Below are positions 30,249 to 34,753 of a stretch of DNA of 35,063 nucleotides, piece after piece. The notes below the pieces were generated by a model. The model searched no databases. It saw only the letters and a program-made list of their open reading frames with translations, and was not told the origin of the DNA. Origin of the DNA: Actinomycetota bacterium. Lineage in GTDB: Bacteria; Actinomycetota; AC-67. Location: the NCBI GenBank assembly GCA_040905475.1, contig JBBDRM010000075.1, forward strand, positions 1-35,063. Reading direction: 5' to 3'. The position numbers and the translations under genes are program-made. How positions within the stretch are numbered: the first letter of the stretch is position 1; every line of letters starts with the position of its first letter.

Positions 30249-30361
30249 CTACGCTTTCACCTGTCTCGGTCGGGGCACACGCCTCCCCAAGGTCGAAAAG
30301 GAAGTCGGGTGGCCTCCGAAGGGTGCGCCCGGACGAGGCCCTGGCCCGGGCACGGCACACT

Positions 30362-30390
30362 AGGCTACCCGCGGCGACGCCGCTGGTCAA
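30362..30390 (-). promoter_or_regulatory. Promoter of the str operon (rpsL-rpsG-fusA-tuf)
   Basis: TTGACC (30385-30390) and TAGCCT (30362-30367) on the minus strand are separated by exactly 17 bases, close to a sigma70-type promoter of a high-GC actinobacterium. The spacer contains a perfect odd palindrome, GCGGCG-A-CGCCGC (30371-30383), between the two hexamers. A start near 30355 would give an rpsL leader of about 105 bases. Confidence 0.7.
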
Positions 30391-30451
30391 CGCGCATGCC
30401 GGCGAGCCGTGACGTCCCGCGTGTGGACCCGGACTACTCGAGGCCCCGGCG

Positions 30452-30469
30452 CTATAATCCGTCGCCTCG
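30452..30469 (+). promoter_or_regulatory. Promoter-like block P1 of the SGNH/MBOAT cassette
   Basis: CTATAATCCGTCGCCTCG contains a perfect -10 hexamer TATAAT (30453-30458). The same 18-base block, with 16 identical bases, recurs at 33112-33129 before the second MBOAT gene. No convincing -35 hexamer is seen at 16-18 bases upstream of either copy. The distance from TATAAT to the following MBOAT-like ATG is 66 bases here and 65 bases there. Confidence 0.6.
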
Positions 30470-30518
30470 TTTCGGGGCCCTTCTCAACGAGCCGAACGCC
30501 GTTCAAGGACAGCAGTTC

Positions 30519-30590
30519 ATGGCCTTCAACTCGTCCAGCGTACGACGCTCCTCATGCCCGATCCCCGGCCTTCAGGGAGGCTCGCGGTGA
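30519..30590 (+). pseudogene. Degenerate 5' end of an MBOAT gene, surviving as a 23-codon ORF coupled to the SGNH gene
   Basis: An ATG 66 bases after P1 opens with ATG-GCC-TTC-AAC-TCG (M-A-F-N-S), matching the starts of the two MBOAT genes (M-V-F-N-S and M-I-F-N-S). Nucleotide similarity to the second MBOAT gene continues for about 50 bases: TTCAACTCG, then TCCAG after a one-base deletion, then TACG and a TGCCCGATC matching TGCCGATC. The frame is lost after codon 5. The ORF reads 23 codons and its TGA overlaps the GTG start of the SGNH gene (GTGA). It has its own AAGGA Shine-Dalgarno nine bases upstream. It may now serve as a leader peptide giving translational coupling, or be a plain relic. 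Confidence 0.6.
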
Positions 30591-31582
30591 CCACGCCTCG
30601 CGCGCGAGGGCGGCTCCCCATGCCCATCGTCGCAGCGTTGGTGGTCCTCGTGCTCGCCGAGATCGCTCTCCGCGTGGCCGCCCCGAAGCTCGGGCCCCTC
30701 AACACCTGGAACGACTGGGAAGCGACCAAGAAGGTCGAAGCGATGGACAGCCTCGCGGCGAAAGGGGGCGCCTCGGTCGTTTTCGTCGGTTCGTCGATGG
30801 TGAACGCGGCCGCCGATCCTGAGCTCTACTCGCAGGTGTCGGGAGCCGATCGGCCCGCGTTCAACGCCGCACTCAACGGCGCCGGAACCCGCTTGCTCGA
30901 TCTGTGGACCCTGCGTGTCGTGGTCCCACGACTCCGCCCGGATGTCGTCGTCGTCGGGCTATCGAGCCGCGAGCTCAACGATCTCGGATCCTCGTCGGAG
31001 CAGGCGTTCCAATCGGTTCGCGGATCGCAGGGAGGACGATCGGTCGCCACGGACCTTTCCCCAACGGAATGGATCCTCCGCGCCGGCGACCAGTCATACC
31101 TTGTCCGCTACCGTCAACGGCTCCGCTCCCCTTCGACGCTCTTCGACACGCCGGCCGGAGCCGGTCGCGCTTCGGTTGGGTCGCTCGGGCAGCTGGCCGC
31201 GCTGCGCATCTTCAACCGACCTCAATACCTCACCGAGGACTTCCACAAGAACGTCGTCCCCCGAACGCTCGCGCGATTCTCCGCAGGCGACCACGCGCTG
31301 GCCTCGCTGCGCCATATGGTCGATGAGCTTACGGCGGCCAAGATCCGGGTGGTCCTCGTCGAGATGCCGGTGACGCAGGACGCGATCGATGCCCATCCGC
31401 ACGGCGCGGACGACTACCGCACGTTCGAACAGATCCTTGCCACGTTCGCGTCGCGAACCCAGGTGATCGACGCCCACTCCTGGTTCGAGGGGACGACCGA
31501 GTTCGCCGATCCATTCCACCTCAACAGCAAAGGGCGCGCGCGATTCACGCGGCAGCTGGACGCAGAAACGACGCCGATCTAA
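30587..31582 (+). CDS. Membrane-anchored SGNH-hydrolase-like protein, putative O-acyltransferase partner of the MBOAT proteins
   Basis: 331 aa from the GTG at 30587, chosen because GGGAGG lies seven bases upstream; an ATG at 30554 has no such site. One N-terminal hydrophobic segment (about residues 12-30) predicts an anchor with the rest outside the membrane. SGNH features: VVFVGSSMVN with Ser70 as likely nucleophile, NAALNGAG as the glycine block, VVVGLSSREL in the third block position, and DPFHLNSKG near the end with Asp308 and His311. This resembles AlgX/AlgJ, PatB and DltD partners of MBOAT proteins in general layout; substrate unknown. The stop overlaps the first MBOAT start as TAATG, so the two are translationally coupled. 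It could be an esterase instead of a transferase. Confidence 0.8.
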   Translation: MTTPRARGRLPMPIVAALVVLVLAEIALRVAAPKLGPLNTWNDWEATKKVEAMDSLAAKGGASVVFVGSSMVNAAADPELYSQVSGADRPAFNAALNGAGTRLLDLWTLRVVVPRLRPDVVVVGLSSRELNDLGSSSEQAFQSVRGSQGGRSVATDLSPTEWILRAGDQSYLVRYRQRLRSPSTLFDTPAGAGRASVGSLGQLAALRIFNRPQYLTEDFHKNVVPRTLARFSAGDHALASLRHMVDELTAAKIRVVLVEMPVTQDAIDAHPHGADDYRTFEQILATFASRTQVIDAHSWFEGTTEFADPFHLNSKGRARFTRQLDAETTPI

Positions 31583-33090
31583 TGGTCTTCAACTCCTACG
31601 AATTCGCGCTGTTCTTGCCGATCGTTCTCGGTCTCTACTGGATCCTCCGGCACCGCCAGCAGAACCTTCTCCTCCTCGTTGCCTCGTACGTCTTCTACGG
31701 TGCGTGGGATTACCGATTCCTCGGGCTGATGGCTACTTCGACGGTAACCGACTACGTCGTCGGCAGGCTGCTCGCGTCGACGGAAGACGAACGGCGGCGC
31801 AAGCGCATCTTCCTGGTAAGCCTCGCGGTGAACCTCGGCATCCTCGGATTCTTCAAATACTTCAACTTCTTCGTCGACTCCGGCGCCGACCTGCTCCGCG
31901 CGCTGGGGTTCGAAGCGAACCCCACGACGCTCCGCATCCTGCTTCCGGTCGGGATCTCCTTCTACACGTTCCACGGGATCTCGTACACGTTCGATGTGTA
32001 CCGCCGCGAGATCGAGCCGGTCCACCGTTTCCTTGATTTCGCGCTCTTCGTCTCGTACTTCCCGCAGCTGGTGGCCGGCCCGATCGGCCGCGCACAGGTG
32101 CAGCTCCCCCAGTTCGAACACCCGCGGCGCAGGCCTTCCTGGGATCAGATCCGGTCCGGTGTCTTCCTGATCCTCCTTGGCTTGTTCAAGAAGATCGCCA
32201 TCGCCGACGCGCTCGCGTCGACGGTCAACTCCGCTTTCGCAAACGCGAGCCGCGTCAGCGCGGCGACGCTCTTGCTCGGCGTGTACGGGTTCGCTCTCCA
32301 GATCTACGGCGATTTCTCCGGATACAGCGACATCGCCCGCGGAACGTCGCGGCTTTTCGGCATCGAGCTCCTCAAGAACTTCGACCAGCCGTACCTCTCG
32401 AGAAACATCACCGACTTCTGGCGGACATGGCACATCTCGCTTTCGACATGGCTGCGCGACTACCTCTACGTGCCGCTCGGCGGGAACCGGAAGGGCCGCT
32501 TCGCCACCTATCGCAACCTGATGGTCACGATGCTCCTGGGCGGCCTCTGGCACGGCGCGGCGTGGGGGTTCGTTGTCTGGGGCGGGCTCCACGGCGCGTA
32601 CTTGTGCGTCCACCGAGCGATCAGCCGGAAGGCGCGCCGCACGACACCGATCGGCGGCTCGCTCGACGACACTCCCGGCGACACGGACGCAACAGACGCG
32701 AAGCCGGACGAAGAGGTTCGGGCACCGCATACCGCGCCCCCACCGCGGTTCCATCTTCTCCGAGATTTCTGGCCGGCACTTCTGACGTTCCATCTCGTGT
32801 GTTTCGCGTGGATATTCTTCCGTGCCGAATCATTCGACCAGGCCGCTGACGTCATCACCGGGATCCTCAGCTTCCGGCGAGGGGCGCCAGGGCTCGATGG
32901 GATGCTGCTCGTTGGACTGGGCGGGCTCGCGATCTTCCTGATCGATCTGTATCAGCGGAACGGGGGCTCCGAGACGGCGATCCTGCGCGCACCGGCGCTC
33001 GTTCGGGGGGCGTTCTATGGGCTCCTCGCCACCGCGATCATCGTCTTCAGCGGAGGCTCGCCGGTCCCGTTCATCTATTTCCAGTTCTAG
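31582..33090 (+). CDS. MBOAT-family O-acyltransferase, copy 1 (AlgI/DltB/PatA-like)
   Basis: 502-aa polytopic membrane protein. The family signature is clear: ILLPVGISFYTFHGISYTFD (120-138), GDFSGYSDIARG (243-254), FWRTWHISLSTWLRDYLYVP (279-298) with His284, and LWHGAAW with the catalytic His324. Known relatives load an acyl group and pass it across the membrane to an SGNH partner. Between the last conserved block and the C-terminal helices lies a hydrophilic linker (about 350-392) rich in Asp, Pro and Thr, probably cytosolic. It ends in PFIYFQF. Substrate and acyl group are not known. It starts on the SGNH stop (TAATG) and so has no leader of its own. Confidence 0.92.
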   Translation: MVFNSYEFALFLPIVLGLYWILRHRQQNLLLLVASYVFYGAWDYRFLGLMATSTVTDYVVGRLLASTEDERRRKRIFLVSLAVNLGILGFFKYFNFFVDSGADLLRALGFEANPTTLRILLPVGISFYTFHGISYTFDVYRREIEPVHRFLDFALFVSYFPQLVAGPIGRAQVQLPQFEHPRRRPSWDQIRSGVFLILLGLFKKIAIADALASTVNSAFANASRVSAATLLLGVYGFALQIYGDFSGYSDIARGTSRLFGIELLKNFDQPYLSRNITDFWRTWHISLSTWLRDYLYVPLGGNRKGRFATYRNLMVTMLLGGLWHGAAWGFVVWGGLHGAYLCVHRAISRKARRTTPIGGSLDDTPGDTDATDAKPDEEVRAPHTAPPPRFHLLRDFWPALLTFHLVCFAWIFFRAESFDQAADVITGILSFRRGAPGLDGMLLVGLGGLAIFLIDLYQRNGGSETAILRAPALVRGAFYGLLATAIIVFSGGSPVPFIYFQF

Positions 33091-33111
33091 GTATCCGCGC
33101 GCGCGGGACGC

Positions 33112-33129
33112 CTATAATCCATCGCCCCG
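33112..33129 (+). promoter_or_regulatory. Promoter-like block P2 of the second MBOAT gene
   Basis: CTATAATCCATCGCCCCG with TATAAT at 33113-33118, 16 of 18 bases identical to P1 (30452-30469). It lies in the 87-base gap between the two MBOAT genes. The leader then folds into a GC-rich hairpin: GCCCCG (33124-33129) with CGGGGC (33144-33149), continued by CCGG with CCGG around a five-base loop. The ATG at 33178 is preceded by AGAGG at 33167-33171. No T-run follows the hairpin, so it is not a normal terminator for copy 1. Confidence 0.6.
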
Positions 33130-33177
33130 CCGGAGGTCCCGGCCGGGGCACGCTGGTTCCGGGAGCAGAGGTTCGCG

Positions 33178-34722
33178 ATGATCTTCAACTCGCTCCAGTA
33201 CGCCTTGTTCCTGCCGATCGTCCTGGGCGTGTACTGGCTGCTGGATCGCCGGAAGCAGAACGCGATGCTCCTGGTGGCCTCGTACTACTTCTACGCCGTG
33301 TGGGACGTCCGGTTCCTGTTCCTCATGTGGGTGTCCACGCTGACCGACTTCACGATCGGCCGGCTGCTCGACTCCACCCAGGACGAGCGTCGCCGCAAGC
33401 GGATCTTCTTCGTGAGTCTGGTGGTGAACCTCGGGATCCTCGGATTCTTCAAGTACTTCAACTTCTTCGTCGACTCGGCCGTGGATCTCCTCAACGCGTT
33501 CGGCCTCGAGCCCAACCGCCCGAGCCTCAACATCCTGCTGCCGGTCGGGATCTCCTTCTATACGTTCCACGGGATCTCGTACACGTTCGACGTCTACCGG
33601 CGCGAGATCGAGGCGAGCAAGGATCTCCTCGATTTCGCCTGCTTCGTCGCCTACTTCCCGCAACTCGTCGCCGGCCCGATCGGCCGCGCGCAGATCCAGC
33701 TCCCGCAGTTCGCGAACCCGCGCCGGCGCCCCAGGTTGGAAGACTTCCGTTCCGGCATCTTCTTGATCCTCCTCGGCTTGTTCAAAAAGGTAGCGATCGC
33801 CGACGCGCTCGCACCGTTCGTCAACACGGCGTTCGCCAACCCTGGTGGCAACGGAGGAGCGTTCCTCGTGGTCGGCGCTTTCGCTTTCGTGCTGCAGGTG
33901 TACGGCGATTTCTCAGGCTATTCCGACATGGCCCGGGGATCGTCCCGCCTCTTCGGCATCGAGCTGCTGCGTAACTTCGAGCAGCCGTTCCTCTCCCGCA
34001 ACATCACGGAGCTCTGGCGCCGGTGGCACATCTCGCTCGCGACCTGGCTTCGCGATTATCTCTACTTGCCGCTCGGCGGGAACCGCGTCAGCAGGCGCCG
34101 GTTCGCTTTCAACACGATGATCGTCATGTTGATCGCTGGTCTGTGGCACGGAGCCGCATGGACGTTCGTTGCCTGGGGAGGCATCAACGGAGTTTTTTTG
34201 GTCGTCGAACGCTGGTTCTCGGACCGGAAGAGGCGAACCGGAACGGTCGTCGAGAAGCGGTCGACGTCGCCGATCGGCGGGGAGCTGGGCACGCTGCCGG
34301 TGGACATCAGCCACGAATCCAGCGTCGACGCCGCGGCAGTGAAGCTGGCGCATCGGAAAGAGGCGCCCCTTCCCCCGCCGTTCGTCTGGAAGAGAGGCCT
34401 CCTTCCCGCGCTCTACACGGTCCTTGCTTTCACGCTCGGAGGGATCTTCTTCCGTGCCGCGTCCTTCACCGATGCGTGGAACTTCCTGAAGGGTATCCTT
34501 ACCTGGCGGTCGGGGTCCCTGGACGGAAACGCCGTCGCCGTGCTGGTCGTCGCGGCGATCTTCTCGTTCGGCATCGACATCCTGCAGCGGAACACGCGCG
34601 ACGAGACCTTCGCGATCCACTGGCCTGCGCCTGCGCGGGCGCTCATGTACGGAACGTTCGTTCTCGCCATCATGATCTACAGCGGCGGCACGCCGATCCC
34701 GTTCATCTATTTCCAATTCTGA
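33178..34722 (+). CDS. MBOAT-family O-acyltransferase, copy 2 (tandem paralogue)
   Basis: 514-aa tandem paralogue of the preceding gene. Residues 1-300 align without a gap, about 220 identities by hand count (73 percent). GDFSGYSDMARG, LWRRWHISLATWLRDYLYLP (His284) and LWHGAAW (His324) are all intact, so both copies should be active. The linker (about 348-403) is longer and unrelated in sequence to that of copy 1 apart from a short SPIGG/TPIGG stretch. The C-terminus is again PFIYFQF. It has its own promoter-like block and leader, which suggests separate regulation or a different substrate from copy 1 (inference). Confidence 0.92.
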   Translation: MIFNSLQYALFLPIVLGVYWLLDRRKQNAMLLVASYYFYAVWDVRFLFLMWVSTLTDFTIGRLLDSTQDERRRKRIFFVSLVVNLGILGFFKYFNFFVDSAVDLLNAFGLEPNRPSLNILLPVGISFYTFHGISYTFDVYRREIEASKDLLDFACFVAYFPQLVAGPIGRAQIQLPQFANPRRRPRLEDFRSGIFLILLGLFKKVAIADALAPFVNTAFANPGGNGGAFLVVGAFAFVLQVYGDFSGYSDMARGSSRLFGIELLRNFEQPFLSRNITELWRRWHISLATWLRDYLYLPLGGNRVSRRRFAFNTMIVMLIAGLWHGAAWTFVAWGGINGVFLVVERWFSDRKRRTGTVVEKRSTSPIGGELGTLPVDISHESSVDAAAVKLAHRKEAPLPPPFVWKRGLLPALYTVLAFTLGGIFFRAASFTDAWNFLKGILTWRSGSLDGNAVAVLVVAAIFSFGIDILQRNTRDETFAIHWPAPARALMYGTFVLAIMIYSGGTPIPFIYFQF

Positions 34723-34727
34723 AAGCC

Positions 34728-34753
34728 GCGAGCCCCGGAACTCCGGGGCCCGC
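34728..34753. terminator. Hairpin between convergent MBOAT copy 2 and rpoC, likely shared terminator
   Basis: GCCCCGG (34732-34738) and CCGGGGC (34743-34749) form a perfect 7-bp stem with a four-base loop, extended by GCG/CGC across one mismatch to 34728-34753. It lies in the 49-base gap between the two convergent genes. The flanks have only short T runs (TTTCGTTT on the plus strand, CTTTC on the minus strand), so termination strength is uncertain in either direction. Confidence 0.55.

Follow-up and report, generated by a model that had tools for sequence, protein, structure and literature searches.

Bacterial MBOAT-SGNH pairs, such as PatA/PatB and the DltB/DltX/DltD system (PMC12148441), are characterised by adjoining MBOAT and SGNH genes, an arrangement shared by the locus described here. 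For PatA, the C-terminal FxYxxF sequence has been shown to be an acyl-shuttle motif (PMC12148441). The likeness to the PatA/PatB and DltB/DltD pairs extends to the proteins: the MBOATs of this locus end in FIYFQF, a form of FxYxxF, and carry the conserved histidine in WHGAAW, while the SGNH protein contains GSS and DxxH.

Gene content and setting of the locus

The window, 35,063 nucleotides in length, spans the entire contig C75 of an uncultured actinomycetotal bacterium, whose genome amounts to 4.24 Mb in 173 contigs; this affiliation is also suggested by kinship to named loci and by the MBOAT tree. Between rpsL (30248-29877) and the C-terminal part of rpoC, both on the minus strand, the gap at 30249-34733 contains three plus-strand genes, SGNH, MB1 and MB2; the rpoC part has partner matches in two family genomes, G003 and G004. 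The first gene (30587-31582, GTG start) encodes an SGNH/GDSL acyltransferase-like protein that exceeds the cut-off of Pfam PF13472 (E=6e-8; 33.8 bits against 32.9) and includes the catalytic motifs GSS and DPFH (DxxH). MB1 (31582-33090) and MB2 (33178-34722) both encode the MBOAT domain PF03062 above cut-off (E=2.4e-30 and 1.1e-29, respectively) and both terminate in FxYxxF with its invariant tyrosine. They score 165.7 and 159.3 bits against the DltB equivalog TIGR04091, below its cut-off of 375 bits; by sequence, their solved-structure relatives are DltB entries. As far as can be judged from such sequence features, the FIYFQF ends fit the acyl-shuttle motif, and the products are probably two MBOATs and one SGNH protein of the PatA/PatB kind. 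In a scheme of this type, an acyl group would be transferred to the tyrosine of the C-terminal FxYxxF, from there to SGNH and finally to an envelope polymer.

MB1 and MB2 are 61% identical and are sister paralogues in two trees (support 100/99). Their fourfold degenerate sites differ at 52% of positions, where 63% would be expected at saturation. The MB2 branch is about twice as long as that of MB1 (0.53 and 0.28), which hints at relaxed or altered constraint after the duplication. In the corresponding tree of SGNH proteins, the window copy clusters with one from contig 55 of the same genome and one from the family member G003 (98/93, 96/91), neither of which has an adjacent MBOAT match. Two SGNH paralogues of the same genome, at L041 7625-8617 (47% identical) and L042 7903-8940 (34%), likewise adjoin no MBOAT match. 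A scan of the genome contigs with the SGNH protein gave no match.

The content of the rpoC-rpsL gap varies within the family: the site upstream of rpsL is occupied by other genes in all four family genomes, by a GNAT gene in G003 and G004 and by other ORFs in G001 and G002. No MBOAT relative was detected in these four genomes, and no relative carrying the SGNH-MB1-MB2 locus was found among them or among the related loci. Across 88 related loci, the order MBOAT-then-SGNH predominates (58 loci) and SGNH-then-MBOAT is rare (6); alternating MSM and MSMSMS arrays occur, and no two MBOAT genes were neighbours in any of the 88. Elsewhere in the same genome, on contig 58, a decayed MBOAT fragment (L045 8460-7880, minus strand; region of residues 72-188) is followed by an SGNH-like tail, YDMLHLTPSGQRAIAKL; this remnant comes after an acyl-carrier-protein-like ORF.

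A duplicated promoter box, leader and gene start

A first-pass annotation of the window had proposed that a promoter, leader and gene start are present twice, in front of SGNH and in front of MB2. The similarity starts with an 18-base box (30452-30469 and 33112-33129) which, as proposed, is identical at 16 of 18 positions. Copy 1, CTATAATCCGTCGCCTCG, comprises the -10 hexamer TATAAT (30453-30458) and CCGTCGCCTCG; copy 2, CTATAATCCATCGCCCCG, lies some 2.7 kb further on and starts 21 bp past the MB1 stop codon; the consensus is CTATAATCC[G/A]TCGCC[T/C]CG. Outside TATAAT the copies agree at 10 of 12 bases, for which P is about 9e-5 at that position. Both strands of the window contain TATAAT only twice, in these two boxes (shuffled sequences average 0.39). 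With up to 3 mismatches allowed and TATAAT kept, no further box turns up in the 4.24 Mb and 173 contigs of the genome; the two other near matches at this threshold both lack an intact TATAAT. Upstream of the box, comparison of the -35 sides of the two copies revealed no similarity, and a search for the -35 consensus found none at either box, although the -10 is perfect in both.

The distance from TATAAT to ATG is 66 bases in copy 1 and 65 in copy 2, as had been reported. Aligned against each other, promoter and leader score 15.5, above all 5000 shuffles (maximum 14.0). Without the 18-mer, the leader is weak alone, with 232 of 5000 shuffles equal or better. The shared stretch described before the start, GTTC-xx-GGA-x-AGCAG, is exact in copy 1 (GTTC-AA-GGA-C-AGCAG); copy 2 departs from it, reading GTTC-CG-GGA-GCAG. 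Beyond the box, the leader shows roughly as much wear as the fourfold sites of MB1 and MB2. A box retained at 16 of 18 positions amid a worn leader and diverged fourfold sites suggests that it has been kept by use, like a working promoter. Transcription would begin just past it, near 30465 and 33125.

The leaders lead to the same type of gene start. The genome contains exactly three instances of the pattern ATGnnnTTCAACTC[G/C] (ATGNNNTTCAACTCS, ATGnnnTTCAACTCS), at 30519, 31582 and 33178. The last two are the starts of both MBOAT genes, and the first is the short stretch ATG GCC TTC AAC TCG (MAFNS; 30519-30533) ahead of SGNH. The annotation had recognised this start at 30519 and 33178; its further occurrence at 31582 means that starts identical at 13 of 15 positions (30519 and 31582) flank SGNH on either side. 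About 0.28 occurrences of ATGNNNTTCAACTCS would be expected by chance in the genome, and 6.6e-6 per 200 bp.

Convergence, in which a common promoter type and a conserved MBOAT start motif would produce the likeness, has to be considered here, as FNS is near-invariant among MBOATs and a similar box precedes an unrelated gene in G001. The number of such starts expected per 200 bp, the uniqueness of the box pair and the similar spacing to ATG make it highly improbable, and chance or convergence is rejected by the genome-wide pattern counts and the shuffles. Moreover, the ORF at 30519 is not an MBOAT, and constraint on codons cannot therefore account for its start. The box was likewise ruled out as a promoter motif in general use in this genome (G000), where it was found nowhere else. 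In the family genomes, near matches to the box are estimated to be at chance level. The G001 sequence, TATAATCCGTTGCC (L141 1501-1514), resembles the box, yet at one mismatch it is about what chance would provide; the GTG that opens an excisionase-like helix-turn-helix ORF follows about 20 bases later.

As judged by these comparisons, 30452-30533 and 33112-33192 are related by descent, each being a copy of an MBOAT promoter and leader together with the opening codons. The shared sequence begins at the box and is firm as far as codon 5. The longer similarity claimed previously, of about 50 bases past the start, persists weakly in the DNA and is absent at the protein level. Between codon 5 and CCGATC (about 30563), 60 of 5000 shuffles match as well against MB2 and 85 of 5000 against MB1, with alignment end points that were picked after the fact, so that base similarity in this region is suggestive only. 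A profile of 93 MBOAT N-termini detected no MBOAT-like residues after codon 5 in any frame (900 of 1000 shuffles were as good).

The upstream reading frame and expression of SGNH

The SGNH frame has two candidate starts, ATG 30554 and GTG 30587. The latter is better placed and is the probable start: AGGGAGG lies directly upstream of it, and the N-terminus that it predicts, VTTPRARGRLPMPIVAALVV, parallels that of the contig-55 paralogue, MPTTSEGKRRRLIPLIVAVA. With SGNH starting at GTG 30587, the frame opened at 30519 becomes an upstream ORF of 23 codons (30519-30590, MAFNSSSVRRSSCPIPGLQGGSR*), the TGA of which overlaps the GTG of SGNH (GTGA). It is preceded by AAGGA (30505-30509), a likely ribosome-binding site 9 nt before the ATG. 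The GTGA overlap suggests translational coupling of the upstream ORF with SGNH, and the SGNH stop codon in turn overlaps the start of MB1 (TAATG), consistent with coupling along the whole upstream ORF-SGNH-MB1 series. Ribosomes would load at AAGGA, translate the upstream ORF, MBOAT-like at its beginning, reinitiate on SGNH at GTGA and pass to MB1 via TAATG; MB2 would be served by its own copy of the promoter.

It has also to be asked whether the ORF at 30519 has been retained as a regulatory leader peptide acting in sensing or attenuation, its MBOAT-like start reflecting merely its origin. Its plausible ribosome-binding site and the GTGA overlap would suit such a role; the whole leader, however, folds no better than shuffled sequences (z 0.20) and matches nothing in Rfam, and a regulatory peptide of this kind is considered unlikely. 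The Rfam result likewise rules out a known RNA element at the leader. More locally, stem-loops are predicted at the probable mRNA 5' ends, at 30464-30478 (GCCTCG-TTT-CGGGGC, 6 pairs including one G-U) and at 33124-33149 (GCCCCG...CGGGGC), with weak z-scores of -1.9 and -2.0. The left arm of both is formed by the conserved bases after the -10, at equal offset in the two copies. These predicted twin structures are a lead from the comparison of two sequences. One could speculate that the stranded MBOAT start has been reused, the 23-codon ORF setting the output of SGNH-MB1 and the twin promoters, with their matching 5' stem-loops, balancing two MBOATs on one SGNH; this more elaborate proposal appears doubtful.

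Origin of the arrangement and comparison with known systems

The promoter-capture reading proposed originally stands in its main part: the segment 30452-30533, in front of SGNH, is the opening of an MBOAT gene, from its promoter through its leader to codon 5, and the SGNH-MB1 pair lies behind it. Neither of the two contrary outcomes named beforehand, a chance-level alignment or conservation of the 30519 ORF with an unrelated sequence, appeared. The part of the proposal that invoked a third, broken MBOAT gene fared less well, there being nothing MBOAT-like in the protein after codon 5, and recombination between tandem copies, suggested as the route, fits the data no better than arrival of SGNH at the 5' end of the MB1 unit.

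In the history that we favour, a promoter-MBOAT unit whose edge lies at the CTATAAT box would first have been duplicated in tandem to yield MB1 and MB2. Next, an SGNH gene belonging to a family that has expanded locally would have arrived at the head of the first of these units; the promoter, the leader and codons 1-5 stayed behind on its upstream side, and MB1 retained its own start. This insertion route is preferred because the starts at 30519 and 31582 flank SGNH and because SGNH groups with stand-alone copies. Taken in full, from tandem duplication through SGNH arrival to coupled translation today, the explanation has about an even chance of being correct. With no relative found to share the locus, and with the gap in G003 and G004 occupied by a GNAT gene, the order of events is read without an outgroup.

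A possible, if less probable, history is that a third MBOAT gene (M0) once lay between the promoter and SGNH and that an internal deletion left its 5' end, MB2 and its promoter being the surviving duplicate of M0. The predominance of MBOAT-then-SGNH loci, the commonest order, fits the loss of an earlier MBOAT equally well, and the existence of MSM and MSMSMS arrays, the weak DNA likeness beyond codon 5 and the second MBOAT fragment, which on contig 58 runs on as an SGNH tail, are all in keeping with it. It requires one extra gene copy, however, and has to accommodate the lack of MBOAT-like residues after codon 5, the absence of any trace of a C-terminal FIYFQF on the SGNH side and the grouping of SGNH with stand-alone copies. 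Deletion between short repeats within a former MBOAT was rejected: CCGATCCC is shared with the 3' end of MB2, but 715 of 5000 shuffles do equally well. Both routes, SGNH arrival and MBOAT deletion, contain the core of the original claim.

Whichever route was followed, gene duplication and rearrangement have left a genuine if modest trace at this locus, ordinary in kind. It offers a readable case of gene gain by an operon: the newcomer would be served by a promoter and ribosome-binding site already in place, with the earlier start codons surviving in a short ORF upstream. A search of the literature for captured promoters with upstream ORFs returned nothing. Our understanding of the enzyme family is unchanged by the locus.

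As in other tandem duplications with a residual gene start, a directly repeated 5' module flanks the intervening genes. Unlike a typical gene remnant, the residue here stays open as a short upstream ORF, and a stop-start overlap links it to the gene that follows. With respect to DltB, MB1 and MB2 differ in falling far under the equivalog threshold, at 166 and 159 bits where 375 are required. The layout of two MBOATs with one SGNH is unusual: in contrast to the PatA/PatB and DltB/DltD pairs, the two MBOAT genes are adjacent to one another and the single SGNH gene is placed first, which raises the testable question of whether a single SGNH can be supplied by two MBOATs.
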